NCBI GenBank assembly: GCA_900318255.1
Contig: ONJX01000008.1
Location: 1 to 64,000 of the forward strand
DNA length: 64,000 nt
Source: an uncultured Prevotellaceae bacterium
GTDB lineage: Bacteria; Bacteroidota; Bacteroidia; Bacteroidales; Muribaculaceae
Direction of reading: 5' to 3'
Shown: one piece after another, positions 17,868-52,295 of the stretch
Numbering within the stretch: position 1 is the first letter of the stretch
Layout: each line of letters opens with the position of its first letter
Notes under the pieces: model-generated
Database searches by the model: none
What the model saw: only the letters and a program-made list of their open reading frames with translations
Told to the model about the DNA's origin: nothing
Translations under genes and position numbers: made by a program

Positions 17868-17955
17868 GGAGTGATGCTCGAGTGGCTGAAGAGGCACGCC
17901 TGGAAAGCGTGTGTGCGTCAAAAGCGCACCGGGGGTTCGAATCCCCCTCACTCCG
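17868..17955 (+). tRNA. tRNA-Ser (anticodon GGA)
   Basis: An 88-nt cloverleaf with acceptor arms GGAGTGA and TCACTCC, a long variable arm as in class II tRNAs, T-loop GGTTCGAATCC and anticodon loop CTGGAAA giving GGA. No CCA is encoded. Its 3' end is the probable attachment site of the prophage, whose integrase starts about 140-160 bases downstream. Confidence 0.95.
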
Positions 17956-17998
17956 CTGGGAAGTCCTGTTGTTACTGGTGCTTTGGGTGATGATGGTG

Positions 17999-18037
17999 TA
18001 TGTGGCAACGTGTGGCAGGATGTTGCAATGAGTGGCA
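17999..18037. other. Candidate integrase arm-type sites, left of int
   Basis: A cluster of related words (TGTGGCAAC, TGTGGCAGG, TGTTGCAAT, AGTGGCATA) lies between the tRNA and int. The 11-mer GGATGTTGCAA (18018-18028) recurs exactly at 19786-19796, after int, next to another TGTGGCAA. Tyrosine integrases bind such short direct repeats beside the core site. Confidence 0.35.
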
Positions 18038-18111
18038 TAAAAACCGACAAAAAACCGCCTTTGACGGTTAAAAACCGACATGAGACCGACATGAGACCGA
18101 AGAGGGTACGA

Positions 18112-30800: not shown

Positions 30801-33800
30801 GCTTTGTTTGATGCCATGCAAGAGCGTACAGACGAAGAAGGCAACACCATCCTCTATCATCTTGGTAAATACAATGATGTGTTAACTGACACGGAGGTAG
30901 CTTTGCGCGACGGTTTGGTGGAAGTGTTGCGTGGTGCTGGCATTGAGGTGGTGACTGATGAGGCTGAGGGCCAGCGAGTGCTTGATGCGGCGAATCGTGC
31001 TGCTGATGTTCTTGATGAGATGAAAAAAAGAAATCAGCAACAAGAAACCGCTCTACCGGAGGATGAATCCTCTTTCAAAGGAACTTCCATTTCTTCTGCT
31101 GACGGTGCAAAGATAATAAAAAATCTTGAAAGTGGCAAAAAAGCATCGAACCAAATTCCGCAGAGGCCTAACGGCGACACGCCCGAAAGCGCACGGTCCA
31201 ATGATTCAGATGCTAATTTACCTGCAAAGTTACAAAAAGTTGCTGATAATGCAAATGTTGAAGAAGAAAAATCGTCGGAGGCATTGTTTGAGGCAACCAA
31301 GGAGAAGTTTGGTACAACGAATGATCTACGTGAGGCGGGTTATATCTTGCCTGACGGCACTATGCTTGACTTTAGCGGCAGGTACATGATGGACGATGGG
31401 ATGGACACCTCACATCTGAGCGGTCGTCGAGCTGTAGATCACAGGGCAATCCATGAGGTGGGCTATGACAAAGACGAGAATGAGACTGGCTTCGAGACTG
31501 ATATGTCGGACTTCATAAGCCGTGGTGCTATCCGTATTGACGCAAATGCTGGAACGATAAACATCTCAAAGGCGCCTACCGCAAAACAGGCTCGCATGTT
31601 GCGGATGCTGATTATGCTAAACGACGGCGACGTGTCGGTGGATTTTGGTGATGGTTATGACTCTGAGCATTATGTTGAATATGAGGGCGCACGTGCAACT
31701 CGTGTCCTTGGAGATATAGACAGATACTTCAACGAGGGCATCAAGCCCCAAGGCAACATCAGTTTTTTCCGCACGGAGAGTGGTGAGGTGTATGGCTTTG
31801 TGAGGAACGGCAAGATTTACATTGACCCACGTGTGGCGAGTGCCGAGACACCAGTTCATGAGTATAGTCACCTGTGGGCTGACGCTTTGAAGCGTGCGAA
31901 CCCCGAAGCGTGGGAGCGGCTGAAAGAGACGATGCTCGGGGAGAAGGACGTGCTGGAGCATGTGAAGCGTCTCTATCCCGAGCTTGAGGGTGACGAGCTG
32001 CTGGCCGAGGTGTTCAGCCACTACAGCGGCAAGCGTGGTGCTGAGCGGTTGCGTGCCGAAATGGAGCGTGAGATGAAAAATGCCGAAGACGTGTTTGCCA
32101 AAGCGAGAGTAGCAAGAGTCTTTGACATCATTAGGCGTGCTCTGTCTCGCTTCTGGGAAATGGCAAGGGATTTGTTTGCTGGCAAGAACTCGATGCTCAA
32201 TGGCATGAGAGCCGAGGACTTTGCCGACATGGCGATGAATGACATGCTTCGTGGCTTTGACCCACGGGGAGAGGAGAAAGAGATAGCCTTAAACGAGACC
32301 CACTACCACAAAGTTACTGACAAAGCCGAGCTTGAGCGATTAAACAATGAGCCAACTGTAGTTAGGTATCGTGCCATGCAAATGATAGACGGCAAGCTTT
32401 ATCCTCCAATGTCGGCAGAAGTGAAAGGTGAACTCCGTGAGCCGACAGAGATAGGAGTTTGGGAGCGTTCGGATGAGCGTCCTGATCTTGTTGACAAGAA
32501 CGGCAAATTCAAGTTGCAGAAAGGCAAGCGCTTCAAAGAGAACAAAGAAGGCCAGGGAGACACCCCTGCGGCTTATAATCCATATTTCCATACCTCGACA
32601 AGCATGATGAACGACCAGTTCACAGCTGCATACGTTCGTCCAGAGCTTGTTGTTGTCAAGGTTGAGATACCCGAGAGTGAGCTCAGCAGTGGTTACAAGG
32701 CAGAGAAAGCCAAGTATGCCGTGGGTAACATTCCGTGGCACAGCGGTCCCGTGAATAGTGCTTTGCCTAAAGAACGGCAGCGCACAGTTACCTTGTCGAG
32801 ATATTGCAAAGTGACAGGGGTTGTGCCCGATGCGGAAGTAGCCGATGCCATCGCCAGGCAGCTTGACGGTCTTGATGTGGCAGTGCCTTACAATGTGGTC
32901 ACTCCGAATGTGAGGGCCGAGCTGGAAGCTCGAGGCGTTAAGATTAGTGCAACTCCATCGGGCAGTGTAACGAGAGACATTAATGGTGAGCTTATCAACC
33001 GTGGCGAGACGGCGGTTGCAAATGAGGGTGCGGTTTTGTACGAGCCAACGGCTCGCAATACTGGACGTGACATCGCACTTGATGACCGAGTGTCGCAGCG
33101 TGAATATTTGCTGAGTGATAATTATGTCGCAAGATTGACAGGGAATGAGTTTGCCAAGAGCGACACGCCGTTGACTGAAAGGGTTGCTCAATTCTATACA
33201 GAGAAATATGGCGGCAAGGTTGAGCGTGAGGGCTTTGGTATGGTACATTTGGATAAACGCGGAGTGAAAGATAGTTTATCCCATGGCTTAGGCAGGAATA
33301 AAGCAGCAGCCTTTGTTGCTGTACCATCAATAATAAAAGATGGCGCATTAATAGACCATAAAGAGAACTTCAAGGGCAGGAACCAAGACAGTTATACGCT
33401 TGCTGCACCAGTAGAAATCGGTGATAAGGGTTATGTTGGGGTTGTTATTGTTACTCGTGGAAAGGGTACAGACCGCAACAAGTTCTATTTGCATGAGGTA
33501 ATCTTACAAAAAAATCTCCTTAGCGAGGAGTTCAAGACCGGAATGGTTACCGGCTCCAAGCAAGGAGAAAATCTCCATGAAGAGAGCATCAAGACCGACA
33601 CTAAAGCGGACTCTCATCAAGGAGACGTTGCAAAGATACTAAAAGAAATTGTAACCGCCAAAGAGAGCGGTGAAAAAGTTGCTAATGAGCGTGGCAGCAG
33701 TTACCGCAATGGTAATGGCGACGTGATTAAGTTTGAGAGCCATGCGGAGCAGTTGAACCTTTTTGGAACGCCGCAGAGCGGCGCACTACGCCAACACGAC

Positions 33801-36800
33801 ATAAGCGGCAAACCCACCGCGCGTAACGAGCGTGTGAAGCGTGCCTCGGAGATGAGCGATGCGGAATTGCTTAGTGAGATGGGACGTGACATTGCCGAGC
33901 TTGAGAAGGCTGGTCGTGCCGATTGGGGCGTTCAGACCTTGTATAGCGAGGAATATGACCGCAGGCATGTCAAAGAATACAACGAGGAGTGCGACCGCGT
34001 GCGCACCATGCTTGACGAGAACAATGTAGGTATAGAAGAAGCCGAGCAGATGTTGCTCGACACCATCTTTACCTGGCGTGAGGGCTTTGCTACTGCCGAC
34101 CGAAGCAGGCTGCTGGCACAGTTTGACACATTGAACGACTACTATGCAGAGAAGGAGGACGAGCGAGACAACGCAGATCTTTATAAAGAGGAACGAGGTG
34201 AGGGAACTGAACGAGCTGACGCTCGCACTACGGAGACACCACCGACGCAGAAAGAAGTTGCATTACCAACGCAACAGACTGAACCTTCCAAACCGACCAA
34301 GACTGGTTTTGACCCGAGTGCTATCAAGCTTAGGAAGCTCAAGGGCGGCGAGACGTGCCATGTGGAGCGCAGGTACCAGGAGAGTGGCAGCTTTGACTTC
34401 ACTGGCAGTGAGAAGGTGGAGAGCGATGCCGACCTGGCGTATATCTTCAGGAACTTGGAGAACAGTGCTATTGAGAACACTTTCCTTGTGCTGATAAAGA
34501 ATGGCAAGGCGACGATATTGCATGTGGGTATGGGAGGTTATGCTTTCTCTGCTGGCCATCTTGGTGCTGGTGTGCTTGCCGCGAGCCGGCTTAAGCCCGA
34601 CAGCGTTATCTTCGTCCACAACCACCCCAGCGGCACATTGCAGCCCAGCCAGCAAGACATAGCGATGCAGGAGAAGGTGAAGAAGATGTTTGGTGCCGAC
34701 AAGGTGCGCGAGGCTATCATCATCGACATCACCAGCGGCAAGTATAGCGTCTTTGACAGTGACGGATGGGGAGCTAAAGAGAAGCAGCGCCCCACCAGTG
34801 CAGAGAACGAGGTGCCATATAAGACCTATAGCTTCAGCCAGCAGGTGTTTGCTGAGGGCTTTGTGCCTGGCTCCACATTCCAAATCACCGACTCGGACAA
34901 AGCTGCCGAGTTTATCTCGGGTCATCGCCTGGGCGAGCGTGACAAGTTGAGCTTGATAGTGCTCAACAGGCAAAAACGCGTGACGGGCAACATCTTCCTG
35001 CCATGGACAACTCTTGACGACATTGACATCAACAAGGCCGCAGGCGTCATTGCCAAGTTCATCCACCAGATGGGCGGTGAGAGCGGCATCCTCTATGGCA
35101 GCGGCACGATAAGCCGTGGCACCCTTTCTCCGTTGGCGCGAGCCATAAGCAACTATGAGGTACACCTTGACGACTTCATCAGTGTGGAGGGCAAGAGCGC
35201 CTATCAATATGGTGCTATGGAGCCAGAGGTTGAATACGAGGCGATGCCTCGCAATACAGAACAACAGCCTACTGAGGTTGCTGAGGACGGCGTGGGTTAT
35301 GGTGAGGCTGATGATAGTGGTATCAGTGACGAGGAGCTTGCAGGATATGACGCAGGGCGTTACAGTTTTGCCGAGGCTGCAACTGCCGCAATGATGCGTT
35401 TGTCTCAAGACCACATCGAGAATGTGGATTTTAAAAGCAAAGCCATTAGATTATTCAGTGACAATCTCAATGACTTGCGTAAGATAATGTCTAAGCAGCG
35501 CACCTATGACAGGCGCACAGTGGACAGTCTTGTTCGCTTGACGCGGTCGATTATGGCTACTGGCTTCTTTAAGGACATGAGCGCATACGAAGTCAAGAGG
35601 TTGCTTGCTGCCATCAAGAAGGGCGTGGGGGCAGAGGACTTGACACCTATTGCCAACAACGTCGTTGACATGCTTGTGCAACACCAGTTGCGAGAGAGCA
35701 AGAATATGCTCCACAAACTGATGCAGGTAAGAGGCAGGAAAGTTGACGCACGAGGTGTGGAAGTCCAGGCAGGACTTGACATCGACGGCCAGCGCATGAT
35801 GAGTGCGTTGAAAGACGGCATGAGTCTTGGCGAGAACGGACTACTTACACGTATCAACGACTGCGAGAACCGACTCGGCAGCGAGGATGAGGTAATCAGG
35901 AAGAATGCCATGAGCGAGTATCAGGGCTTGATGCTTGCGAAGGAATACCACGACAACATCTTGAGTGGCGAGGAAGAAGAAATCGTGCTACGCAACGAGA
36001 AACGCCAAGAGCAGGAGAAGATTTACGACTTCCGTCGTGAGCCAGTTCTTGACGATGACGGCAACGCCATTATAAACCAAGACGGCAGTGTGCGCACCGT
36101 AGAGCGCAAGACCTTAAAGCCACAGTTCAAGAATAATGTCACCGACGAAAACAAGCAGCTAAGGCGCAACACCGAAGCTGCCATCGAGCGCATTGAGCAG
36201 TCGATAAGAGAGAGCCGCATGGAGCGAGTGACCTCATACATTGACTTTATGAGCGATGTGGCAGGAGATGTGCGTGCGAGCCGAGAGCGTGCCGCCGAAT
36301 GGCGTGATGAGCAACAGCAGCGTGTAGATGAGATACACCACAACGCCAACAGCGACCTTGAAGGCGTGCCAGTACAGAGCCAAGTCAAGCTTCCCGAAGG
36401 AGGACTACTTGCCTTCAACAGCAATAACGATATTGTGCGGTTGCTGTTCCAGCCCTTGGCGACCTTTGAGAAGATGTTGCGTTTCTTTGGTAGAAAAGCC
36501 CACAATGGTGAGGGTTATCTGTTTAACCGCTTCATGCGAGGCTGGGTAGATTGCAGCGACAAAGAGTGGCGCAGCAAGCGTGCCGCCCATGAGGAACTTG
36601 ACGCAAAGGTTAATGAGCTGCTTGGCAAGAAAGCCAAACGTTGGAGCGACCTCTATAAGGTAGAGCGCAACAAGAAGCACCCAGGCATACCAGTAGAATA
36701 TTGGGACAATGGCGAGCGAGTACAAGAAACCATGTCACAGGGCGAGGCGTTGAGCCTTGTTGTGTGGAGCAAGCAGAAAGACGCTGAGGCTGGCTTGCGC

Positions 36801-39203
36801 CGAATGGGCATCAGCGAGGAAGACATTGAGACCATCAAGAGCCATCTCGATCCAAAATTCTTGCAGCTTGCCGACTGGGTTGTTGAGGAGTTCCTGCCCA
36901 AACGTAGGACTTATTACAACGAGGTGCATGAGCGGATGTTTGGTGCTCCAATGGCCGCTATTGAGCATTATTTCCCCATTGTGCGCAACAGCCGTGACGT
37001 GGAGAAGCCCAGCGACATTACCGAGCGAGACCTTGGCGAGACAAAGCCCAGCACCATAACCGGCAACATCATCAAGCGCCAGCGCACCGCCGCCGCCCTT
37101 GACGTGCATACCGACTTCTTTGACCATCTGCTCAAGCACCTCGACGACATGGAGAACTGGGCAGCGTGGGCAGAGTTCAACCGAGACATCAACACGTTGC
37201 GCAACTATAAACGCTTCAAGAACCGAGTCCTCAACATGCACAGTGTGGAGTATGGCTCAGGCAAAGATTTATGGAAAGCCTTTGACGACGCGTGCGCCAT
37301 TGCCGCTGGAGTGTATCACCCCAGCACCAAGCGCGGCAGCGGTGACAACCTTGCCGTCAATGTTGCCAAGGGCGTGACAGGAGCTAAGATTGCATTCAGG
37401 TTCTACACAGCCGCCAAGCAGCTGTTGTCGCTACCCGCATTTTGGAATGGCGATGCAAGCCTGCTTGAGCTTGCCAAATGGGAAAACCCAGTAGGAGCCA
37501 TCATCGCCTGGAACTGGGCGATGAAGAACCTGCCAGGCTTCTCAAAGAGGTGGCAGAGCAGGCAAGTTGGTGACGTGAGGTTGATGGACACCGACAGCGA
37601 CTATGCGTTTTGGCGCAACAACATGGTTAGAGCATTAAGCCGAGGTGGCATGTGGGCCAATGCCCTCGTTGATGGTATGACCGTTGCCATGGGAGCCCGG
37701 GCAGTGTATGAGACCCGCAAGAAACGCTACCTGCGCAACGGCTACAGCGAGGAGCAAGCCGAGAAGCGTGCCATGCAAGATGCCGCTATCAACTACAACA
37801 GCAGCCAGCAGAGTAGCGAGAACGCCTTCTTGAGCAGTCTGCAGCTCGACCGCACCTGGTGGAGCACCCTAATGACCGTGTTCCGCAGTGCGTCGATGGG
37901 CTATCAGCGACGCTTGACCACTGGTTTGCGTAACCTCAAGAACCGCATGAAGAAAGGCTACAAAGCCGAGAGCATCGAGTTCATGAAGAAGCAGATGGTG
38001 CGTGACGGCATCGACGAGGCTACCGCCGAGAAAGCCGCACGTCGCATGTATCGCTGGGGCGGCATCAGGAGCATGGCCGATGTTTTTGTCTTTGGTTTAG
38101 TCTTGCCATTCTTCTGGAACCTCGGCCCCTATGCACTATACCTACTGATGGGCGACGATGACGACGAGAAGAAAGACATGCTCAAAGATGCAGCTGTTCA
38201 CAGTTTGTTTGGCCCCGTAGAGGGCTTGACAGGCGGCCAGGCTATGAGTGAGATTGGCAATACTTGGGCAGGATATCTTATGAGTGACAATGACAAGAGC
38301 CTCCTCAACGCTTTGCGCTATCACGACTACCTATCGATGCCATTAGGCAGTGACCTGCAACAGATATTCAACGAAGCTGGCAATGACTCAATGGCAGCGT
38401 GGACAGACGCATTTAACTTGCTTGTTCAGGCAGGAATTGGAGTCAACCCCGAGACCTTCACCGATGCTTGGGTTGCCATTGCCGACGCTTGCGACGGCGA
38501 CCCACAGACCACCAAGGAGTTTGCGTTGTGCTTCATGCGAGTTATGCAGGTACCCCAGACGCAGGTTGACAAGTTGTTTATCGACGAGCTTGGCATGACC
38601 GCCAGGGATGCCCAGAAGCTCAACGCAATGGAGATGGCCGACCGCTATGCAAGGTATAAGAAGTTCAGAAATGCTCCCCTGCTGAATTGGGCATACAGCC
38701 CCGACGAGTCGCAGAAGGTTGCAGAGAAATACCGCAAGCGTTTCCTTGACAACATGCAAGAGCGCATGGAGAGGCTGGACGATGAGCAGCTTGGTTGGAA
38801 CTTTGAGAACCCCAACGACAGCGAGCGCAGGAAAGCCGTAGGCAAAGTTTATGCCAAAGGCAAGGGTGTGCAGGACAGTGCCGGCAAGAAACCAGCGAGC
38901 AACTGGAAGCCTGAGACCCGACGTTCACAGTTGAAGTACCAACGACTGCGTGACTATAACGACCTTGCGGAAGACGTGCTGCTTGATGTGGCCATCGACC
39001 AAGCCAAGAACCGAGGCGACGGCGAGACGGAGAAAGCGTTGCGAGACGCGAAGAAAGAGCTCACCGAGATTAAGCGTGGCAAGCACACCAAGACTATTGA
39101 CATCAACGGACTTGGTGACGGCAGTGCTGATGACGACAAGGCGATTATGGAAGAGCTGCGTGCACGTCGCAAGGAGATATTGCGGGAGCATGGGGTAATT
39201 TAA
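21900..39203 (+). CDS. Giant polyvalent virion protein (5,767 residues)
   Basis: One unbroken frame. Parts in order: two copies of an N-terminal repeat (YDALKADGADVGS and YDTFKADGADVGK, 1-68); hydrophobic Gly/Ala stretches (about 630-830); acidic linkers; a DdrB-type ParB-like domain (about 1650-2060) with SGNGRTMAG near 1764; a nucleotidyltransferase (about 2110-2220) with GSRTTGTARADSDLDVLVEY at 2148; a polyvalent-type inorganic pyrophosphatase (about 2245-2390); LPD1 (about 2745-2850) with HEWFH at 2832; a second zinc-protease-like HEYSH at 3320; an unnamed domain (about 3490-3700); an LPD3-like domain (about 3785-3870); a RadC/JAB-like domain with HNHPSGTLQPSQQD at 4240; then a long helical LPD38-like tail with a hydrophobic segment near 5390. 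Such proteins are thought to enter the host with the DNA and disarm defences. Confidence 0.85.
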   Translation: MPINSKIKSLYDALKADGADVGSEQEFSDWFQAPGEQGYNNRKYVYDTFKADGADVGKNYEEFESWLGLHAVQPQVTQAGNRETLASDMVAATKDATAIASGAPHVQVPEYGNAASGNMLGDYVGNGGLQGGTIGALQGVGQQDGGGNASQLEVTNTAPEPEPVIEPQQPTDVKQKFRPAELTEKEAGDDLAFMREVNRSQGDIPEGAPQVQNNDGYRMPNIDKAWKAGYSQSWGKINGLFDGLNYEKKDVTADLDNAVNSRYDGMSDQAIESELQKLSKEYKAGEWEGDEDVLRAHIRRLQMNLIAHEYNYKNFEDMSSHRGEAEYEMYKYHPAFDQEWLATYKGGPGENPLVNMGKEIVKKQLIEDTMNGVNRPEGYYQTLPFQDEKFSKRYASWALKRAKVLGGMSFADVFNNGIKSWEAYIGAGLLESGAAEAMAQGAGYGDVGIAGGKYNADYDAAAATAWGMAEDEYRRLSGAHSDEIWGGYASMGGGREARMVASGEWAVSNMADRLSSHDLDKMIDNAWKALGESKQKQIILAAAQNLKQQYPGMSPAEIVKTAQVMAGQQTIQRVLDYAKKQHAPKNVLDYFVRKVIEQNSIFKIQEAMARSRAGTTGDWQARDMAMQEYGKNHRIAGVAGTVVGMGLDPVTYISAGVGKGAATGTVKLIEKLGGATGRKWLTTTAGKVVVGAAGGAANLGTFEGLNETLNQLRWGGTPAVDLKTGLIKATGYDAGEIGKAIFHGSTMGAGTGIVAPLVGNVWSPLMDATSSTAGKMAVKIGELFTGTIAEGTIFSIPDIYNAYTESENIIKSFSDKKSPNYIGDEQERAKAIAKVRESRNETMLDAWSESVATMAGFKMKHVGQRLYELSQSGNGRAGFETRLRYMLDRKPDLALTKDEQAELERGGYADLKELVDEYVEAEKNRRVGSKPVVTGKPRPLELGTREEDMPYNRFVDLMNDGSISEAARAKMYYYITGHALPMSTVMYGQLTENKDSDGNVKSYTVRSIGANGVVTSREFTSSKRAENELQKVNRQAELNTVDVGERYNEEVADKKRFDAACRVFAAENNLPVSVVYERLSEGPRERGSYYEQIAKIYKDMGDAYSTKQVRAEVEKRYNVDIQKIIKKEPNRRSDVEQMALDEYVRRLFPEKEATEGDAEDVSSGDATSDTDGGDAAGGVGSITDESDAVIVETLSRTGEDGMIHPAVLKGEDEAGVDIVSGNVVTLADGTIDVAGSDPDIVVVDANGERQMVSINDIASVGEVVDPNAVVDAAMQAQQGMAQEDAKGDVSATGVAQYETAPTKDGMAEVSPSSLEVGGRYDVTDEQGVGHQVEVLHDYGNGTLEVRVDGAEEPQPMVKAQLEAMLGIDAAQAPQPGEPPVADTPPGDDMDAGSERYSFDPNADVVAMGEAGFSERDIAVTVDYLNGKLNEREYLEALGVLPSTLERMGDNAIERWANSTAEGASEFITDEAVESGDVRVESDEDEQSSGRADEVDVLPPTPSNVEVEPEEDIEAMPMLDDGNPDYSQVDASRAHDYLYSDESGLDKSEADEYVQAQIDAAEKALSKIDKRPLKMGTDLAKYRAEKQRRQEQLDAAKANVDYWEKVKAVEQAREAQAAAERKAKDAEVIAQAQAEEQARQAAELAKQQEQAERGAGAVHAAIAEKWNNAPKIEGYKDEVVLANGERVPGTYYLVESGAVTPSHNASREFEKYEGFPVDENGNTINDRDYERDKDAQNITRSIADKYDSRALQTPVIVSKDGVVLSGNGRTMAGELAASNNTDGAYIEHLKNYGRKYGFSPEQVEGMQHPRAVFVPDAAMPYTTDTFAKFNAQEMKGQSKTEQAVKLGKVVDDATFNQVVRAINEHETLGDFYGDTKAATEAINALRRAGAINDMQYAEMFDGDAVSDRGRQIIENMLIGKAFEGNPDVIRMLTEYKGFRQSVVTALNEISTNKALGKDYSLEKELAQAVDLAYKARKAGYKENEPVSPYATQLNLFPFEDGETVADYNNAAVLLLADMLNDKRPTLLKKKLQDYNQQSAESAAGQMDIFAGGVKEKKEIIKTVLNTLHNGETEETSRPEQRGSVADERGGEASLQEDGAAGQPEQGESNIQGLESYSEDELRVIVEEHVRSAIADADMDAEITGIRFIGSRTTGTARADSDLDVLVEYQGTAREDSLFNVLNDEDNRLVIDGITVDINPITPGKSGTIEEFMKRNAGYKKETTVQEQIALAEQQTETSPSEAQKEAGNYKKGHVKIDGFDISIEQPKGSVRSGVDASGKSWRQKMNNTYGYIRGTEGVDGDHIDVFLSDDPSQGDVFVVDQVNNDGSFDEHKVMYGFNSEEDARQAYLSNYEDGWQGLGAITAVSKDEFKKWIGSSHRKTKPFAEYKNVKVEGAQAGTMRQPTGQKVEGATHPVSAAKSSQKSEVAEAPKERIDDVGEKIEGAKKDLAQKMGERINLDADTFPKMFPKYDLKQLISQGLDPSLAVMTKMLRQMAQADYKHYSKKRMYGKNYALRAARFYAAYAKQVLEAGDSNVDFKSEGLGFTDYGKQFVELNKRLFEELHKKLGDDIFDLDLTGVKMQPISQKEGTTWYRRNQETGESEPYNPAYAFIGPRGQSYYEANELDKALQEGVEQVSKSVDYQKTHPYKLGHYYKPGVKNSDYVGVKLGGKVVPLTEPMTSSEVRKYMSEHNAELQAKAAQLDEQRKLDKKKGGTGEGRWKPELTLGGGRPRVGADRRGGIDIEAEEFMKSFGFRGVQFGNYVTQRERQRFLNEVYDALMDMAELLGISPRALAIDGRLGLAIGARGGGKANAHYEPKENVINLTKSKGAGSLAHEWFHALDYYFNKSSNRPTSATANKSAEQFPASTRDEMRKAFLDLMRAIKNSDYYNRSVALEQKLHPQQLGEGYYDKPTELGARAFQDYVVRKLTDQGKINDFLSSFTSEKDWNGEPENYPYPVGAEAEKIDEKFDALFDAMQERTDEEGNTILYHLGKYNDVLTDTEVALRDGLVEVLRGAGIEVVTDEAEGQRVLDAANRAADVLDEMKKRNQQQETALPEDESSFKGTSISSADGAKIIKNLESGKKASNQIPQRPNGDTPESARSNDSDANLPAKLQKVADNANVEEEKSSEALFEATKEKFGTTNDLREAGYILPDGTMLDFSGRYMMDDGMDTSHLSGRRAVDHRAIHEVGYDKDENETGFETDMSDFISRGAIRIDANAGTINISKAPTAKQARMLRMLIMLNDGDVSVDFGDGYDSEHYVEYEGARATRVLGDIDRYFNEGIKPQGNISFFRTESGEVYGFVRNGKIYIDPRVASAETPVHEYSHLWADALKRANPEAWERLKETMLGEKDVLEHVKRLYPELEGDELLAEVFSHYSGKRGAERLRAEMEREMKNAEDVFAKARVARVFDIIRRALSRFWEMARDLFAGKNSMLNGMRAEDFADMAMNDMLRGFDPRGEEKEIALNETHYHKVTDKAELERLNNEPTVVRYRAMQMIDGKLYPPMSAEVKGELREPTEIGVWERSDERPDLVDKNGKFKLQKGKRFKENKEGQGDTPAAYNPYFHTSTSMMNDQFTAAYVRPELVVVKVEIPESELSSGYKAEKAKYAVGNIPWHSGPVNSALPKERQRTVTLSRYCKVTGVVPDAEVADAIARQLDGLDVAVPYNVVTPNVRAELEARGVKISATPSGSVTRDINGELINRGETAVANEGAVLYEPTARNTGRDIALDDRVSQREYLLSDNYVARLTGNEFAKSDTPLTERVAQFYTEKYGGKVEREGFGMVHLDKRGVKDSLSHGLGRNKAAAFVAVPSIIKDGALIDHKENFKGRNQDSYTLAAPVEIGDKGYVGVVIVTRGKGTDRNKFYLHEVILQKNLLSEEFKTGMVTGSKQGENLHEESIKTDTKADSHQGDVAKILKEIVTAKESGEKVANERGSSYRNGNGDVIKFESHAEQLNLFGTPQSGALRQHDISGKPTARNERVKRASEMSDAELLSEMGRDIAELEKAGRADWGVQTLYSEEYDRRHVKEYNEECDRVRTMLDENNVGIEEAEQMLLDTIFTWREGFATADRSRLLAQFDTLNDYYAEKEDERDNADLYKEERGEGTERADARTTETPPTQKEVALPTQQTEPSKPTKTGFDPSAIKLRKLKGGETCHVERRYQESGSFDFTGSEKVESDADLAYIFRNLENSAIENTFLVLIKNGKATILHVGMGGYAFSAGHLGAGVLAASRLKPDSVIFVHNHPSGTLQPSQQDIAMQEKVKKMFGADKVREAIIIDITSGKYSVFDSDGWGAKEKQRPTSAENEVPYKTYSFSQQVFAEGFVPGSTFQITDSDKAAEFISGHRLGERDKLSLIVLNRQKRVTGNIFLPWTTLDDIDINKAAGVIAKFIHQMGGESGILYGSGTISRGTLSPLARAISNYEVHLDDFISVEGKSAYQYGAMEPEVEYEAMPRNTEQQPTEVAEDGVGYGEADDSGISDEELAGYDAGRYSFAEAATAAMMRLSQDHIENVDFKSKAIRLFSDNLNDLRKIMSKQRTYDRRTVDSLVRLTRSIMATGFFKDMSAYEVKRLLAAIKKGVGAEDLTPIANNVVDMLVQHQLRESKNMLHKLMQVRGRKVDARGVEVQAGLDIDGQRMMSALKDGMSLGENGLLTRINDCENRLGSEDEVIRKNAMSEYQGLMLAKEYHDNILSGEEEEIVLRNEKRQEQEKIYDFRREPVLDDDGNAIINQDGSVRTVERKTLKPQFKNNVTDENKQLRRNTEAAIERIEQSIRESRMERVTSYIDFMSDVAGDVRASRERAAEWRDEQQQRVDEIHHNANSDLEGVPVQSQVKLPEGGLLAFNSNNDIVRLLFQPLATFEKMLRFFGRKAHNGEGYLFNRFMRGWVDCSDKEWRSKRAAHEELDAKVNELLGKKAKRWSDLYKVERNKKHPGIPVEYWDNGERVQETMSQGEALSLVVWSKQKDAEAGLRRMGISEEDIETIKSHLDPKFLQLADWVVEEFLPKRRTYYNEVHERMFGAPMAAIEHYFPIVRNSRDVEKPSDITERDLGETKPSTITGNIIKRQRTAAALDVHTDFFDHLLKHLDDMENWAAWAEFNRDINTLRNYKRFKNRVLNMHSVEYGSGKDLWKAFDDACAIAAGVYHPSTKRGSGDNLAVNVAKGVTGAKIAFRFYTAAKQLLSLPAFWNGDASLLELAKWENPVGAIIAWNWAMKNLPGFSKRWQSRQVGDVRLMDTDSDYAFWRNNMVRALSRGGMWANALVDGMTVAMGARAVYETRKKRYLRNGYSEEQAEKRAMQDAAINYNSSQQSSENAFLSSLQLDRTWWSTLMTVFRSASMGYQRRLTTGLRNLKNRMKKGYKAESIEFMKKQMVRDGIDEATAEKAARRMYRWGGIRSMADVFVFGLVLPFFWNLGPYALYLLMGDDDDEKKDMLKDAAVHSLFGPVEGLTGGQAMSEIGNTWAGYLMSDNDKSLLNALRYHDYLSMPLGSDLQQIFNEAGNDSMAAWTDAFNLLVQAGIGVNPETFTDAWVAIADACDGDPQTTKEFALCFMRVMQVPQTQVDKLFIDELGMTARDAQKLNAMEMADRYARYKKFRNAPLLNWAYSPDESQKVAEKYRKRFLDNMQERMERLDDEQLGWNFENPNDSERRKAVGKVYAKGKGVQDSAGKKPASNWKPETRRSQLKYQRLRDYNDLAEDVLLDVAIDQAKNRGDGETEKALRDAKKELTEIKRGKHTKTIDINGLGDGSADDDKAIMEELRARRKEILREHGVI

Positions 39204-39670: not shown

Positions 39671-41743
39671 TTATATAGAGGCTTCGGAGACGGCCTGGCG
39701 TTTTCGGACGTAGAGTTGGTCACGTCGCACGATGCGTGGGACGTCCATTTCGTGAAGACTGATGTGCATACCTATAGCACGAGTCATGAGGCGGTCGTCG
39801 TGATATCCTTCGGGTGCTTCGTATCGTCCTTCTATCTCAATGTAGGTGGCATATTCATCGAGGCATCCCTCGTCACGCTCGGTGTAGAGACGGTCACGCA
39901 GAATAGTTTTCATATTGTAGATGATAGTCTTCTTTGTCGATACGTTGGTGTGGAAGCCATATTTGAGAGGCTTCTTCTGCTTTATGTCCTCAGCACTTTG
40001 TTTGCGAGCATAGAGATTGTCGTACACGTCACGGATGAGAGTAAGGATATATTCAGCTTCACCCTTTGTGTTGTTAGTTTCAAGCGTGTTGCTCTCGATA
40101 ACCAGGAGAGCGTCGTTGTAATACTTCGCTATCTGTGCCGACTTCCAGGCAAGCACGTCCATGTCGATATGTCCTCGCCATTGCGCCACGACAGTAGGCC
40201 CCTCGCCCTCCATCATCCACAGACGGTCGAAGACAGTTATCACCGACCAGTCGGCTTTAGCTGACATACCCTTACAGACATCGACGACGACAAGGTAACG
40301 TTCGGTTACTATCTCGTCCTCGTCGGGTTCCACGTCCTCCCACATGAACAGGCGACCAGTTTTCTCACGTTTGAAGCGCAAGTTTTCGAGAGCGTCGGGA
40401 CCGCTATTGTCCTTGCCGTAGATTTCGCCCACCCATTTCGGTGTGCGGCATGCACTACGGAACTGTTCAATATCCTCGTCGGGGAATACCCTTGCACCTG
40501 AGAAAGTGAACGCCTCGATGTCGTTAGAAGGGAACTCCGACGCCATATCTCCGTGGTCGGTGTATTTGGAGCGTTCGGCGATATACCAGTGAATAGCTTC
40601 AAGAGTAGCCCCCATCATCCATAGACGGTAGAGGTACTGCCCACTTTCCTGACGGTCGGACGCTGCATATTCGTTGTCCCTATTCTCATAGAGCCACTTC
40701 GCAAAACGCTCACGCTCGGCATCGCTTTCAAATTTCAGCGAATAGATGTCAATCTCATACCATGCGACAAAGAGAGCTTCGAACTGTGACTTGCCTTCCT
40801 TAGCCGCAAGGTATTCGGAGTGGAACAGGTTGCCAGTGCCGTTGGCTGTTGACTCATAGACCACGAGTGTGTAAGGTTCATATACCATACCCGAGAGTGC
40901 CGAGCGCACGATTTGTGCTGGAGTCATTTTCTCGGTAGTCTTCCACAGCCCCACCTCTGTAAGATGCACGCAGTTGTAGTCACCACCACGAGCCGAGTTG
41001 GGTTTCTCGGCTGTGCCGATTTTTATCTTGCACTTGCGTTGTGGAATGCGCTGTATGTTTCCAGTCTTGCCGACCCCGACCAGCTTAGGCTCATCTTCCT
41101 TGTAGGGTTCTCCAAGTTGGTAAAGGAGACGGACAGGATATTTCTCTATCATTTGGTCAAACATGTCCTTAACCTCGGTAGAAGCATCCTTGACGTGTCC
41201 GACGATAAGCGAATTGAGACCTACCTTGTGAACCAGTTGTAGCCATGCGATATAGAGCTGTGTCGCCGTTGAGCCTCCCCACTGACGAGCTTTGAGCAGC
41301 ACCAGTCGAATAGGCTTATTGGCAAGTCTCATATTCTCCAGTCGAGAAATGAGACGGCGTTGTGGACGGTTGAGGCGAAAAAGTATATCTTCGCCACCAC
41401 CTTTAGGTTTTATATAGACATAGGAAGCAGCCCAGAACGGAAAGTCGTGCTCGTTGCGCAGACGGACAAACTGCTCGATTACTTTGAGACGGTCTTCATC
41501 GTCATAGTCGCCAGCGATGTCGTAAAGGAATTTCTCAATGGAGCCAGCTTTTTTTAGTTGCTTGACGAGAGGCACCTTGCGCATCGAGACAGGCAGATGT
41601 TGCACCTTGATGGGGAAGTCCTTGAGCTCAAAGACAAACCTCTCCCCTACCGAGTTCTCACCAGTGATTGGGTTGAACTTGGCGGCGATGGCAGCCAGGC
41701 GCGCCGAGTTTTCGTTTAATATTTTAGTTACTGCAGAGGTCAT
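39671..41743 (-). CDS. terL: Terminase large subunit
   Basis: 690 residues. ATPase part: VLLKARQWGGST (about 145-156) is the Walker A-like loop, and the hydrophobic strand with acidic end CVHLTEVGLW (about 260-269) is the Walker B. Nuclease part: YLVVVDVCKGMSAKADWSVI (about 480-499) and LVIESNTLET (about 553-562) hold the acidic RNase H-fold residues, with a late Asp near DDRLMTR (about 650). It packages DNA into the head through the portal. Its ATG overlaps the stop of the rhomboid gene (ATGA). Confidence 0.92.
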   Translation of the reverse strand: MTSAVTKILNENSARLAAIAAKFNPITGENSVGERFVFELKDFPIKVQHLPVSMRKVPLVKQLKKAGSIEKFLYDIAGDYDDEDRLKVIEQFVRLRNEHDFPFWAASYVYIKPKGGGEDILFRLNRPQRRLISRLENMRLANKPIRLVLLKARQWGGSTATQLYIAWLQLVHKVGLNSLIVGHVKDASTEVKDMFDQMIEKYPVRLLYQLGEPYKEDEPKLVGVGKTGNIQRIPQRKCKIKIGTAEKPNSARGGDYNCVHLTEVGLWKTTEKMTPAQIVRSALSGMVYEPYTLVVYESTANGTGNLFHSEYLAAKEGKSQFEALFVAWYEIDIYSLKFESDAERERFAKWLYENRDNEYAASDRQESGQYLYRLWMMGATLEAIHWYIAERSKYTDHGDMASEFPSNDIEAFTFSGARVFPDEDIEQFRSACRTPKWVGEIYGKDNSGPDALENLRFKREKTGRLFMWEDVEPDEDEIVTERYLVVVDVCKGMSAKADWSVITVFDRLWMMEGEGPTVVAQWRGHIDMDVLAWKSAQIAKYYNDALLVIESNTLETNNTKGEAEYILTLIRDVYDNLYARKQSAEDIKQKKPLKYGFHTNVSTKKTIIYNMKTILRDRLYTERDEGCLDEYATYIEIEGRYEAPEGYHDDRLMTRAIGMHISLHEMDVPRIVRRDQLYVRKRQAVSEASI

Positions 41744-42279
41744 GTATGAGCCTTTCTCGCCAAGCGATGCTTGCCGACCTTTTTACCAATTAAAACGGCA
41801 ATTGCTATGGCAATGCCGAGGGTGAAGCAATAGAGGTGGACGGCTGCTGCCATGGCTGGGATGAGGAAGCCGATTGCTACCATGGCAATTATCCAGGTGA
41901 GGTAATAGCGCTTTCTTGCCACCTTGTGGAAGGCGATGCCCATGAGGGCGAAGCAGACACCTGAGAAGCCGATGGCTTTAAGTGTTAAGTCATAAGTGTT
42001 AAGTGTTAAGCACCATGAGGGTACTGTGGAGGCTATGAGGAATGCCAGTAGCAGTTCCCAGTCCTTGATGTCGTAGTAGAAAGCGAGTGCTAGCAGGCAC
42101 CACACGTTGCAGAGCGCGTGGAAGAAATTGGCATGGAAGAAGTGGTAGCACAGGTGTCCTGTGATGCCACAACCAGGCTGCAGCACACATTGTTGTGGTG
42201 CGTTGAAGAACGCCAATATCAATAGTGCAAGACTCAGAAGCAGTGTCGCAGTCTTCGTTTGGTTCGTTGAAAGTACCAT
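41740..42279 (-). CDS. Rhomboid-family intramembrane serine protease
   Basis: 179 residues, six likely membrane segments. The three rhomboid marks are all present: His/Asn in FFHALCNVWCLL (about 52-63), the catalytic Ser in IGFSGVCFALMG (GFSG, about 103-106), and the catalytic His in AVHLYCF (about 145-151). It should cleave single-pass membrane proteins in the inner membrane. It lies in the packaging operon, overlapping the gene before it by 46 bases and the large terminase after it by four, so it is a phage gene and not a passenger. Its substrate is unknown; a host membrane protein or a phage membrane protein are both possible. Confidence 0.8.
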   Translation of the reverse strand: MVLSTNQTKTATLLLSLALLILAFFNAPQQCVLQPGCGITGHLCYHFFHANFFHALCNVWCLLALAFYYDIKDWELLLAFLIASTVPSWCLTLNTYDLTLKAIGFSGVCFALMGIAFHKVARKRYYLTWIIAMVAIGFLIPAMAAAVHLYCFTLGIAIAIAVLIGKKVGKHRLARKAHT

Positions 42280-49600: not shown

Positions 49601-50065
49601 AATGAGAGCAACACAAGTTCTAAGGCTTATATTCAGAACAAGCCTACGATACCCACTGTGCCGACCAACGTGAGTGCATTCACCAACGATGCGGGGTACT
49701 TGACGCAACACCAAAGCATAAAGACTGTAAATAATACCTCATTGGTTGGTAGTGGCAATATGAACCTTGCAAAGCCAGTCGGAGTGATTGCTGTAGCAGG
49801 CGCTACACCTACCCAGACGTTGAGTCCTAACACGTTCTACAAGTTCACTGGAGCGATCACAAGCCTAACCCTTACACTTGGTAGCGAGGTTAGCGGAATA
49901 ATGAATATCTACGCCTTCCGCTTCACGGCAGGTGTTGACAATCCGACCATCACACTCCCTCAAGGTGTGGTGATTAATCAGGACTTGAGCCTCAAGACTG
50001 GTGATGTGTGTGAGTTCAGTATTCAAGACAATTTAGCTTTGTTCTCCGTTTGGGGGGCAAGTTAA
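46694..50065 (+). CDS. Tail spike/fibre with DUF4855 domain
   Basis: 1,123 residues. N-terminal particle-binding-like part (about 1-150) with two GxYC-type strands; a middle beta section with two similar halves (about 180-300 and 340-460, each with TLTIEEDGFVYVNC or TLHIEQDGFVFINC); then a DUF4855 domain (about 490-880) opening with MILYYGHSGRVRW and with WFFNSLLYVEF, an acidic IELAGLYWVAES strand and KGFKLYWVPF, which look like a glycosidase barrel; then fibre repeats (IKTINNQSLLGSGNI, SDWSQSDSTQVDYIKNKPT) and a beta C-terminus. It should bind and perhaps cut surface glycans of the host. It ends in a six-G run one base out of frame with the next gene. Confidence 0.78.
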   Translation: MASYIDLNDLGSFANINALWAAYPEGGQEGDYCTIDGVKYRWDKYDRMWVADPNFGPTPARKVETFYGDVNMQNNLTVAGTIRAKGVKQPCVGLHPTVSALEAAYPDPEVGMWAVVGDTMPGPIYRCSTAGVWTATGETGGVDDIDLTDYAHVADVPEIADNLKTEDPQQVLSARQGYELGNDVAPMKTTDSYTSSDLLDGYWNIGVAVSQGIAVSTTRQANPSPTASPYHLYKSLCIPVKRGDVVAVNTNGLYSARPWAVTDTDRFILSTTDETYGGVTSATLTIEEDGFVYVNCVADDETVTTNNINGLASFSVTKTTNYAGNVKKVPKLASQAQSQYGVKEYDADCLNLDYAWANALSVETVDIYKVYNSYHGCLFFPVYCGDTVEINTKAYTAGTTSQAGGITNGVTWCVTDTARNIVSAAEATDDAVEVTLHIEQDGFVFINCANDYEGENEEKLFAVTHTYNKVRKETELSAELDKRINNPTENTMILYYGHSGRVRWRPSELEHVLIHTHTTGEKKGVTEWFFNSLLYVEFATGWGNDARSFGWGLTADNSRPATKADFEWLIDRYFSEDLVGGEHEGLRALEEKIGDLKKTMGVPPRRHKVILTIPIPYYYVHGSDDTSSNNHWGKLYKTDIPSYNDGWEEGDPWADIFGEYDTLLFDVESEAKDGECAEMTLNTLKVDGEVINNRPIIMKWFIDCVIERFNAKDYQNIELAGLYWVAESLTYPQYVIQPSGQDPIIGDISEYIRGKGFKLYWVPFRDANGRFSRAGIDETFLQTAYEFDKGLSLTKEVMRNAYKEAVMHGMGVEIELDDTIFSTLGDPSAINNAKMTRLEELMEVCEEEMFFNRVDIAYYFSGKMQIWMSQSPVERVRKFMDRLCTLINNVESSATSLSPAIATKQDTLISGANIKTINNQSLLGSGNITIQGGGGGSQIQSDWSQSDSTQVDYIKNKPTIPAAQVQSNWNESNTSSKAYIQNKPTIPTVPTNVSAFTNDAGYLTQHQSIKTVNNTSLVGSGNMNLAKPVGVIAVAGATPTQTLSPNTFYKFTGAITSLTLTLGSEVSGIMNIYAFRFTAGVDNPTITLPQGVVINQDLSLKTGDVCEFSIQDNLALFSVWGAS
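50052..50057 (+). other. Six-G tract at the spike stop junction
   Basis: The spike frame reads TGG GGG GCA AGT TAA. One added G changes this to TGG GGG GGC AAG TTA and continues, without a stop, into the next gene's frame, which begins at 50080. A read-through product of about 1,260 residues would result. Confidence 0.55.
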
Positions 50066-50079
50066 GAAAGGAGAGCCGA

Positions 50080-50481
50080 ATGAGTTTAGAGCTAAGACGA
50101 AGAGAGATGATGCAGGCAAGCGAAGATTACCTCAAGGGGTGGACAAAAGGTTATAGGATTGCCAACAATGGCACTCTTACGCCTTATGCTACATTCATAG
50201 CGTCTCCGCATATACCCATCCCTGCTGGCACTGAACGAATTGAAGTTTACCAACCGACAGAGTATAATAAGCCGAAGAATGTCCTTTGTCTTTTTTATGC
50301 AGATGGCACATTTCAAGATTTCTATTTCAACTACGGGCCAAACTGGAGAGTTAGGCAAACAACCCTCCCAAGCGGAGTTACAGAGATTAATGTGTCATTT
50401 CTCATAGCCGATGTAGATAACTGTTACATCAAGAACGTATATACGGGCGAATATATATGGAAAGGCAAGAATGTTGAATAA
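50080..50481 (+). CDS. Tail accessory protein, paralogue A
   Basis: 133 residues. N-terminal MSLELRRREMM, then a single beta-rich domain ending DVDNCYIKNVYTGEYIWKGK. The neighbour at 50563 has the same plan and the same end (IDNCYIKDL, LWKGKNV). Both look like exchangeable surface domains of a fibre tip, carbohydrate-binding in style. The start ATG follows the spike stop by 14 bases. The out-of-frame G tract upstream would fuse it to the spike if slipped by one base. Confidence 0.6.
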   Translation: MSLELRRREMMQASEDYLKGWTKGYRIANNGTLTPYATFIASPHIPIPAGTERIEVYQPTEYNKPKNVLCLFYADGTFQDFYFNYGPNWRVRQTTLPSGVTEINVSFLIADVDNCYIKNVYTGEYIWKGKNVE

Positions 50482-50497
50482 TTTAAAACTTGATAAT

Positions 50498-50566
50498 ATG
50501 TCTAACGAATTGAACACTAACGCATTAGGGGGGGTATCAGCCTCCTCGAAAGGAGAAGGGCGATGA
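50498..50566 (+). CDS. Short frame with a seven-G tract that opens into paralogue B when G is added
   Basis: ATG at 50498 begins MSNELNTNALGG, reaches seven G (50528-50534) and stops at 50564-50566. With eight G the same ATG would read NALGGGISLLERRRAMMGD and on through paralogue B. SLLERRRAMM matches the paralogue A start (SLELRRREMM), which shows the slipped frame is the ancestral one. As written, the stop TGA overlaps the ATG at 50563, so coupled reinitiation is the alternative. Confidence 0.55.
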   Translation: MSNELNTNALGGVSASSKGEGR

Positions 50567-50931
50567 TGGGGGATGTCAAGGAGACCGATTTGACTGGCTG
50601 GACTTTGGGGAAAGGCTTAACCACTGCGAATTATTACACAACAGACGAGCTGCTTTGCGTGTCACCATACTACGATGTGGCAGGTGGCGAGGAAATAGAG
50701 GTGGTGGTCTTCAACACTTACGATAATGACCATCAATGTAAGTTCATTGGTTTAAACAGCAATAATGGTAGAAACGTAAGCAGAACGATTTCCACTAAAC
50801 CAGTGATAATAGCATTGGGAAGTGATACAGTCAGATTTCGTGCTGTATGTATGCTTGCCTACATTGACAACTGCTACATAAAGGATTTAACTAACAACGT
50901 CTTTCTTTGGAAAGGGAAAAACGTAAAATAA
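50563..50931 (+). CDS. Tail accessory protein, paralogue B
   Basis: 122 residues as read from the ATG at 50563; the full form would start at 50498 (see the short frame upstream). A beta-rich single domain with IEVVVFNTYDN and the shared end YIDNCYIKDLTNNVFLWKGK. Homology to paralogue A is clear from N- and C-terminal motifs. It lies before a fibre-assembly-like gene. Receptor binding is an inference. Confidence 0.6.
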   Translation: MMGDVKETDLTGWTLGKGLTTANYYTTDELLCVSPYYDVAGGEEIEVVVFNTYDNDHQCKFIGLNSNNGRNVSRTISTKPVIIALGSDTVRFRAVCMLAYIDNCYIKDLTNNVFLWKGKNVK

Positions 50932-50940
50932 ACATAAACT

Positions 50941-51252
50941 ATGTTCACAAACGGAGAGAAAACAATAACTGGCAAGCGCATCACGGTTAACGGATGCGTT
51001 GTGCTGAACCCAAGCGAGGAACTGCTTGAGGAGCAAGGATGGCACAAGGTAGTGCCAAGCGAGCCGACACAAGCGCAGCTCAACGAGCAGCGCATCTGGG
51101 AGCTGAAAGACCAGCTCGCACAAGGTGACTATAAGATTATCAAGTGCACAGAGGCGCAGCTCATGGGCGAGCCGCTGCCTTATGACATCACCGCACTGGT
51201 GGCGGAGCGAAACGCCATGAGAGCCGAGATTAACGAGCTGGAGGCGCAGTAA
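50941..51252 (+). CDS. Tail-fibre assembly-like protein
   Basis: 103 residues. An N-terminal beta part (KTITGKRITVNGCVVLNPSE) is followed by a helical part with QLAQGDYKIIKCTEAQLMGE and LPYDITALVAERNAMRAEIN. This wording is typical of small proteins encoded just after tail fibres in Bacteroidales phages, likely chaperones or short base proteins. It closes the spike locus. No catalytic motif. Confidence 0.55.
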   Translation: MFTNGEKTITGKRITVNGCVVLNPSEELLEEQGWHKVVPSEPTQAQLNEQRIWELKDQLAQGDYKIIKCTEAQLMGEPLPYDITALVAERNAMRAEINELEAQ

Positions 51253-51279
51253 AAAAAGAGGCGACCTCTGTCGCCTCTT
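51251..51279 (-). terminator. Leftward terminator of the candidate RNA
   Basis: Perfect 10-bp stem AAGAGGCGAC (51256-51265) with its complement (51270-51279), 4-nt loop. On the minus strand the stem is followed by a run of seven U. No U-run follows on the plus strand. Confidence 0.75.
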
Positions 51280-51428
51280 CCCACAATGGGGAGTTAAAAA
51301 ATCGTCCCCTGCACATTCAAATCTATCTACCACAACAGACATGACTACCCAGCCCACTGGAGCGCAGGGGACGTAAGTCCTCGGCTTAGCGGACTGGGTT
51401 CATTGTTTAATAACGCGTATCTGTTGTG
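51253..51428 (-). ncRNA. Candidate structured RNA of about 175 nt
   Basis: A leftward -7 box (51434-51441) and a leftward terminator (51251-51279) bound a gene-free stretch with strong pairing. A 12-bp perfect stem joins 51328-51339 (TACCACAACAGA) and 51420-51431. Inside it, ACCCAG (51347-51352) pairs with CTGGGT (51394-51399), extended by ATGA/TCAT, and GGAC/GTCC (51369-51372/51377-51380) closes a 4-nt loop. GCAGGGGACG (51364-51373), inside the long stem, is also the perfect complement of CGTCCCCTGC (51303-51312) outside it, which would form a pseudoknot or a switch. No RNA family is recognised. Function unknown. Confidence 0.5.
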
Positions 51429-51433
51429 GTATG

Positions 51434-51441
51434 CAAAGGTA
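51434..51441 (-). promoter_or_regulatory. -7 box of the candidate RNA
   Basis: TACCTTTG on the minus strand. Start of transcription would fall at about 51427-51428, at the outer end of the long stem. It lacks the 13-base phage box. Confidence 0.5.
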
Positions 51442-51454
51442 ATAAAATAATATT

Positions 51455-51688
51455 ATGCTTGCAATAGATTTGGTGAGATTTTGCGCTGAAATGCTGAAAC
51501 GTCTTTCAGATTGTGACATTTTGCTTGACGATTACAAACGAGTGGAGATGTGCGATGAATACTGCAAACTAATAGATGAAGGCCATAAAAAGGAATATGC
51601 CATTGCAATAGTCACGGAGAAATACGGAGTGAGTGAAAGCACTGTACGCAGGGCAGTTAAGCGGCTGTGCCGACCTGTCACGACGTGA
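51455..51688 (+). CDS. Small helix-turn-helix protein
   Basis: 77 residues. The C-terminal half, EYAIAIVTEKYGVSESTVRR (about 50-69), is a clear helix-turn-helix of the homeodomain-like or sigma-70 region 4 type. The N-terminal half is helical. It lies just after the candidate RNA and before a separate promoter for the next gene block, so it may regulate late genes. Confidence 0.6.
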   Translation: MLAIDLVRFCAEMLKRLSDCDILLDDYKRVEMCDEYCKLIDEGHKKEYAIAIVTEKYGVSESTVRRAVKRLCRPVTT

Positions 51689-51809: not shown

Positions 51810-52295
51810 ATGGACAATGACATGATGATGAGGGGACTTTCACCCTACGAGACTTTCATGATTAGCGAGAAGCAGGGCCGCCGCACCAACGGTGTGGGCA
51901 TCACTGGACTTGTGCTTGGCAGTGTGGGTGCTGCCGCCGCTATCGGAGCGTGGATTTTCGCACCTATCTATGCCAACAGCCGTGCTAAGGCAGCCCAGGA
52001 CATCGCTGCCGCACAGAACGCTGGCACCGCCAACCTGCTCAACAACGTGGCAAGCCTTCTCGCCGCAGAGCGTCAGGAGCGTGTGGCTGGTGATCTTAAC
52101 ATCACCACCACCATCAACGACAGCGTGAGCGGCTCACAACAAGGCTCTATCAACGCACAGATTGAGAACAGCGCAATGGCACAGGCAACTACCCAGCTGC
52201 TTACCCAATCGCTGCTCGGCAACCTGAGCGAGAACGCACAGAAGGTACAGATTTATTCTGCTCCACAACCATGCGGCTGCCCCTGCGGTTCTTAA
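51810..52295 (+). CDS. Membrane-anchored virion or tail protein candidate
   Basis: 161 residues. A Gly/Ala-rich membrane segment (ITGLVLGSVGAAAAIGAWIF, about 30-49) is followed by an Ala/Gln/Asn-rich helical part and a Cys-rich end (QPCGCPCGS). First gene of a block of six small genes that end at 53949. No known family. The block's many Cys and membrane segments suggest envelope-facing parts. Confidence 0.5.
   Translation: MDNDMMMRGLSPYETFMISEKQGRRTNGVGITGLVLGSVGAAAAIGAWIFAPIYANSRAKAAQDIAAAQNAGTANLLNNVASLLAAERQERVAGDLNITTTINDSVSGSQQGSINAQIENSAMAQATTQLLTQSLLGNLSENAQKVQIYSAPQPCGCPCGS

Follow-up and report, generated by a model that had tools for sequence, protein, structure and literature searches.

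Layout of the locus

The stretch of DNA analyzed here (the window: 64,000 nucleotides (nt) of contig ONJX01000008.1, from an uncultured Prevotellaceae bacterium) contains a compact predicted transcription unit for a structured RNA on its minus strand at 51464–51296, between a tail-fibre block and a gene for a helix-turn-helix (HTH) protein of 77 amino acids. The original prediction had described a minus-strand promoter, a perfect stem of 12 base pairs (bp), inner stems and a complement outside the long stem, all of which were located in the sequence, positions included, as described. The features are as follows.

51434–51464, minus strand: promoter, read from the sequence, with TTG at −33 (51464–51462) and the −7 box TACCTTTG (51441–51434)
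51296–51431, minus strand: RNA of about 136 nt running from a predicted +1 near 51431 into the U-run, where its 3′ end is placed; both ends deduced from the family-wide architecture of 125 distinct members
51418–51431, minus strand: 5′ arm of the outer stem P1, starting at the predicted +1, first 12 bp perfect
51328–51341, minus strand: 3′ arm of P1, partner of the 5′ arm
51388–51399, minus strand: 5′ arm of the inner stem P2, pairing with 51358–51347
51347–51358, minus strand: 3′ arm of P2, partner of the 5′ arm
51369–51380, minus strand: apical hairpin P3, GGAC (51380–51377) with GUCC (51372–51369), alternative to the pseudoknot
51364–51372, minus strand: 5′ strand of the pseudoknot, GUCCCCUGC, a C-tract in the apical loop
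51304–51312, minus strand: 3′ strand of the pseudoknot, GCAGGGGAC, G-rich, outside P1, pairing with GUCCCCUGC, proposed strand of the terminator stem
51296–51301, minus strand: U-run of six U, proposed 3′ end of the RNA, kept in relatives
51251–51279, minus strand: separate hairpin terminator AGAGGCGAC..GUCGCCUCU-U7, downstream of the conserved RNA and outside it, probably shared with the convergent gene
51455–51688, plus strand: divergent gene of the HTH partner, 77 amino acids, Mor-like (phrog_17790, E 1.1e-14)
50941–51252, plus strand: convergent gene, 103 amino acids, end of the tail-fibre block (phrog_17180, unknown function)

The perfect 12 bp of P1 are formed by 51431–51420 with 51339–51328, and the stem reaches 14 bp when extended. 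The folding energy of the strand was −77.5 kcal/mol versus −51.5 ± 4.0 kcal/mol for shuffled sequences (z = −6.5, 0 of 200 shuffles as low). The promoter is near the Bacteroidetes consensus, and its −7 box is unchanged in four close relatives. A TAnnTTTG-type box was present in every parsed member, which is partly imposed by the search rule, and TTG at the −33 offset of the window was found in 17 of 125 members.

Relatives share the architecture

BLASTN of the region against phage records gave no match, because the relatives share structure and not sequence. Relatives were gathered, as viral contigs, through protein homology, starting from the HTH protein and from the protein next to it. Close relatives retained the RNA at 78–92% identity, and distant contigs, although devoid of nucleotide similarity, had the elements in identical order at the corresponding position, namely promoter, P1, P2, C-tract loop, P2′, P1′, linker, G-tract and U-run. 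Loci fetched by protein and not by RNA thus share the architecture in unrelated sequence (L002–L004, L007–L011, L015, the hankyphage loci L019/L021, and L031–L066). Annotated phages with HTH homologues include hankyphage p00 and BX-TP1, in which the RNA is present and unannotated, and a scan starting from the hankyphage HTH protein yielded 33 further contigs, all with the RNA. Altogether 125 distinct RNAs were parsed; they come from Bacteroides phages, hankyphage p00 among them, from viral contigs of the rumen and from prophages in many genomes of Bacteroidales. One locus (L114 4493–4628) is in Phocaeicola vulgatus ATCC 8482 (NC_009614.1). A descriptor consisting of promoter, P1, P2, pseudoknot and U-run matched 206 of 240 related loci and nothing in 5.47 Mb of dinucleotide-shuffled sequence. 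The comparison with relatives bears out the leftward structured RNA of the original prediction, with a putative promoter of its own and a U-run end.

We also built a covariance model, R1, in which the pseudoknot pairing is left out, although the conserved C- and G-tracts are learned as sequence. Of the 297 host-family genomes sampled, 31 (about 10%) gave a scoring R1 match; the window copy was missed in whole-genome searches (E 0.04). Among 20 R1 loci inspected, the HTH gene was present in 18, and in those that parse all nine pseudoknot pairs can form, with new variants such as UCCCCAGC/GCUGGGGA. One R1 match (L012, E 1.4) was rejected, there being no matching structure at that locus, and a phylum-wide R1 search gave no match, with no positive control among the genomes searched. 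Genome G906 has four copies of the RNA (C1 1777930; C2 22089, 1064513 and 1097173), three of identical score, which is consistent with a transposable phage in several copies. A DNA pattern run over 84,980 GTDB species matched 57 stretches; the records concerned bear the labels of Bacteroidales genera in nearly every case, the exceptions being one labelled Ruminococcus and one labelled ‘uncultured bacterium’.

Covariation and the functional strand

For covariation, 30 members gathered by protein homology were parsed into stems in Python and the trimmed sequences were aligned; MAFFT on whole RNAs had misaligned P1 and P2, hence the stem-wise parsing, and a second trimmed set, badly aligned, was left out. 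The window row of this alignment (A5) is off by one column in P2, which slightly lowers the window's own P2 count. Over 31 pairs, 97.1% of cells were paired, versus 63% after shuffling and about 40% after sliding. Paired base changes in relatives, which the original prediction had named as a check on the RNA, were found: 26 of the 31 pairs had changes on both sides (307 cells), including 12 of 12 counted pairs in P1 and 10 of 10 in P2. For the pseudoknot, which it had raised as a possibility, 97.8% of cells were paired, and of its nine pairs four showed compensatory changes and three were invariant; the larger set of 125 members agrees, with the alternatives G-C/U-A/A-U, C-G/U-A and G-C/A-U in its columns. 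The stems were chosen for pairing, so that these percentages lean to structure; the variety of pair types per position is harder to obtain in that way. Besides the pairing, an apical GRGGGYAU strand and an AACAGG linker are near-constant, while P2 is free in sequence and keeps its pairing.

Symmetric scoring of wobbles gave 159 G-U versus 38 A-C, and therefore the minus strand is the functional one. This bears on whether the element acts as DNA, that is, as an operator pair for the HTH protein or as a recombination site, for which inverted repeats adjoining the gene of a DNA-binding protein would be suitable. The wobble bias, the promoter, the U-run and the survival of the element without the HTH gene all stand against such a reading, which we disfavour as very improbable. 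On the basis of these sequence comparisons we hold with high confidence that the RNA itself, with its predicted pseudoknot, is real.

Formation of the 3′ end

Of 125 members, 113 lacked an ordinary terminator hairpin at the U-run; of 122, just 5 had a second terminator in the 90 nt downstream. Since the ordinary hairpin is nearly always absent and the pairing partner of the G-rich strand ahead of the U-run is the apical loop, we infer that the pseudoknot duplex (median −23 kcal/mol among the members) is the terminator stem, and we consider it likely that the pseudoknot terminates transcription. The original prediction had placed a U-run terminator after the stem; a U-run does follow the stem, but what is conserved as the 3′ end is the U-run at 51296–51301, coupled to the pseudoknot, and not the hairpin at 51279–51251.

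By comparison among the members, the minus-strand RNA has its predicted 5′ end in P1, P1 and P2 stack as one long hairpin around an A/U-rich joint, and the apical C-tract pairs with the G-rich strand right before the U-run. With about 28 bp in P1 plus P2 and a median linker length of 12 nt, geometry makes it probable that the hairpin bends at this joint so that the pseudoknot can form. RNA polymerase would start at a promoter of the host housekeeping type, P1 and P2 would fold first, the emerging G-rich strand would then pair with the apical loop, and this pseudoknot would take the place of the usual terminator hairpin, the transcript being released at the U-run. With P1 beginning at the predicted +1, the product would have its 5′ and 3′ ends both base-paired, and the RNA should therefore be stable, resisting exonucleases and being long-lived.

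P3 and the pseudoknot compete for one strand, so the element could instead be a condition-dependent terminator, in which a ligand or protein holding P3 would cause readthrough into the convergent genes. A P3-like pairing of at least 3 bp, GGAC/GUCC in the window and a GGG/CCC-like counterpart in relatives, exists in about 98 of the 125 members, with a few GGA/UCC and GGC/GCC variants and sparse covariation. However, P3 is mostly 3 bp as against the −23 kcal/mol duplex of the pseudoknot, 27 members have no P3, and nothing useful lies downstream in the sense orientation; we regard this mechanism as improbable. The two mutually exclusive foldings of the original prediction are weakly supported: the pseudoknot does exclude the small apical P3, but it coexists with P1 and P2.

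Gene context

A divergent HTH gene lies within 600 nt in 114 of the 125 RNA loci. The model of the HTH protein is a confident one with five helices (predicted local distance difference test score, 94.9), and its fold matches to Mor (1rr7) and to Mu transposase subdomains are weak. Mor (PF08765) likewise matched the HTH homologues weakly, in 17 of 22 (best E 0.00064), the window protein not being among the listed matches. At the window locus the RNA promoter overlaps the first codons of the HTH gene and there is no room for another promoter between them, so transcription of the RNA and of the HTH gene would exclude each other, which could separate the lysogenic from the late state.

Ten members with enough flanking sequence have no HTH gene, and the divergent gene there is usually an adenine methyltransferase or thymidylate-synthase-like gene. 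The RNA is kept in these ten members, and therefore its function is not tied to the HTH gene. Three HTH homologues were found without the RNA. At locus L028 (1735–1765), next to an HTH homologue, the promoter and about 8 nt are all that is left of the divergent RNA, seemingly as a remnant. At L006, L013 and L014, just upstream of the homologue of window 51810–52295, other small genes, some at least HTH-like, replace the HTH gene and the RNA is absent. Two ideas about P1 were dropped: that its sequence classes are phage immunity groups, since co-resident prophages can share a class, and that it is the HTH operator, since the same classes occur without the HTH gene.

The distance to the divergent gene is tight whichever gene it is: the predicted +1 lies a median of 27 nt from the HTH start (range 25–58, 114 members), and in HTH-less members the methyltransferase or thymidylate-synthase-like gene often starts 28–64 nt away. 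Transcripts that come into the divergent gene from upstream would have to cross the RNA gene, and the main rival explanation is accordingly that the RNA acts in cis: it would block the mRNA leader of the HTH or methyltransferase gene, or pair with it, with repression by antisense pairing or by polymerase collision. Antisense pairing, however, could do without a conserved apical loop and without a pseudoknot, the loop that would initiate it is locked in the pseudoknot, and P2 keeps its pairing while its sequence is free. We rate a cis-antisense role as rather unlikely.

On the other side, the convergent neighbour across the loci is a tail-fibre, diversity-generating retroelement or lysis-type gene. 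The window locus belongs to a prophage with an integrase beside tRNA-Ser at 17868 and a P22-like portal; the tRNA-Ser adjoins the tyrosine integrase gene at 17868–19317, probably the left end of the prophage. One open frame of 5767 codons lies inside the prophage at 21900–39203, and a rhomboid-like protein is encoded against the late genes at 41740–42279 on the minus strand. The neighbouring small proteins at 50050–50481 and 50563–50931 have like ends (YIKNVYTGEYIWKGKNVE / YIKDLTNNVFLWKGKNVK) and probably derive from duplication of a tail-associated gene.

Possible function

The explanation that we prefer, with a little better than even confidence, is that the window RNA belongs to a family, uncatalogued in Rfam, of stand-alone structured non-coding RNAs from temperate Bacteroidales phages, and that it most likely acts in trans and is exclusive with the HTH gene at the promoter. 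Expressed from the prophage, this regulatory RNA would bind protein and act on something that Bacteroidales cells have in common, given that P2 varies while the pseudoknot, the apical GRGGGYAU strand and the AACAGG linker are near-constant; the constancy of the apical strand and the linker suggests a protein partner that may be common to these hosts. For the trans-acting role taken by itself, we see the chances as evenly balanced. A match of the apical GAGG to the anti-Shine-Dalgarno sequence was considered and rejected, as other members have AAGGC or AAGGG there.

Several points weigh against this explanation. A U-run was obligatory in the descriptor by which members were gathered, and the alignment used for counting had been trimmed to the stems; both favour structure. 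No transcript of the RNA was found in the open-licence literature searched, the promoter and the ends being predicted. What speaks for a trans role is the apparent conservation of unpaired parts and the survival of the RNA without the HTH gene, whereas the tight spacing to the divergent gene would suit a cis role equally, and the target, ligand and binding protein of a trans role are all hypothetical. The full proposal, namely a new class of phage RNA in which a long-range pseudoknot serves as intrinsic terminator and 3′-end lock, with both ends buried, and which acts in trans on a Bacteroidales host factor and is paired with a Mor-like regulator for the lysogenic or late state, is put forward tentatively, as somewhat doubtful in its entirety.

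Temperate phages are abundant in gut Bacteroidales, and no stand-alone RNA of this kind has been described for them in the open-licence literature searched. The conserved loop would point to an RNA-binding partner of Bacteroidales, whose phylum, to our knowledge, lacks Hfq. If it is true that the pseudoknot ends transcription, the notion of an intrinsic terminator would become wider, and such ends would escape terminator finders designed for local hairpins. The presence of the RNA in hankyphage, for which inducible strains and RNA-seq reads of a lysogen, Bacteroides thetaiotaomicron jmh43 (E-MTAB-14274; PMC12135933), are at hand, makes its role directly testable; the RNA is unmentioned in the passages searched of the paper reporting these reads (PMC12135933).

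Comparison with known systems

None of the 4227 families of Rfam 15 scored above its gathering threshold over the RNA, matches at that level being limited to a tRNA within the window and, in relatives, to RT-3 at another place. Relaxed matches to STnc250, SraB and MIR6143 were below gathering scores and scattered and were rejected as chance matches, in keeping with the original prediction, which had recognized no family.

The RNA resembles 6S and 6S-Flavo (RF01685) in being stand-alone and hairpin-like with an A/U-rich interior, and a long hairpin with an A/U-rich internal joint and its own promoter could in principle be a decoy that binds RNA polymerase. It differs from them in the pseudoknot between apical loop and 3′ end, in being phage-borne and in its HTH neighbour; it gave no match to Rfam 6S or 6S-Flavo up to E 10, and in our reading its A-rich and U-rich sides can pair in several members. 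We know of no need for an apical-loop pseudoknot in 6S RNAs, and find a 6S-like decoy quite improbable.

Type III ToxI and the AbiF RNA RCd22 are likewise small, structured and protein-binding, although binding is putative for the window RNA; ToxI is pseudoknotted, and RCd22 of Clostridioides difficile is phage-borne (PMC12373285). With this precedent, a phage-borne structured RNA beside a small gene could serve as the antitoxin in a toxin-antitoxin pair of the type III or AbiF-like kind. The parsed members, however, have no tandem repeat unit, the partner is an HTH protein and not a ToxN-like or HEPN RNase, the two genes are divergent and not co-directional, and PADLOC had no matching family, only weak HTH-type matches. 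We give this possibility hardly any credence.

The hankyphages that carry the RNA also have, about 2 kb from it, the RT-3 RNA (RF03068) known from Bacteroides phages; RT-3 is a different RNA, on the other strand and beside a reverse transcriptase, and it is absent from the window. In the hankyphage diversity-generating retroelement it immediately precedes the reverse transcriptase (L019 843–992, L021 337–486, L034 845–993, L037 819–966, L047 841–988 and L059 815–962). The Bacteroides-2 motif of a 2010 survey by Weinberg is a candidate non-coding RNA of Bacteroides from one sequenced organism, with no Rfam entry in the table of that paper (PMC2864571). The window RNA family, in contrast, occurs in many organisms, and the two are set apart by description only. 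A search of the open-licence literature for structured phage RNAs in Bacteroides returned nothing relevant. From the phage c4 antisense RNA (RF01695) the window RNA is set apart by its gene context and by the absence of a sequence or structure match in the Rfam scan. The c4 RNA and other phage regulatory RNAs are small prophage RNAs that act as regulators; such RNAs are thus already known, and what is new here is the RNA family and the predicted architecture of its 3′ end.
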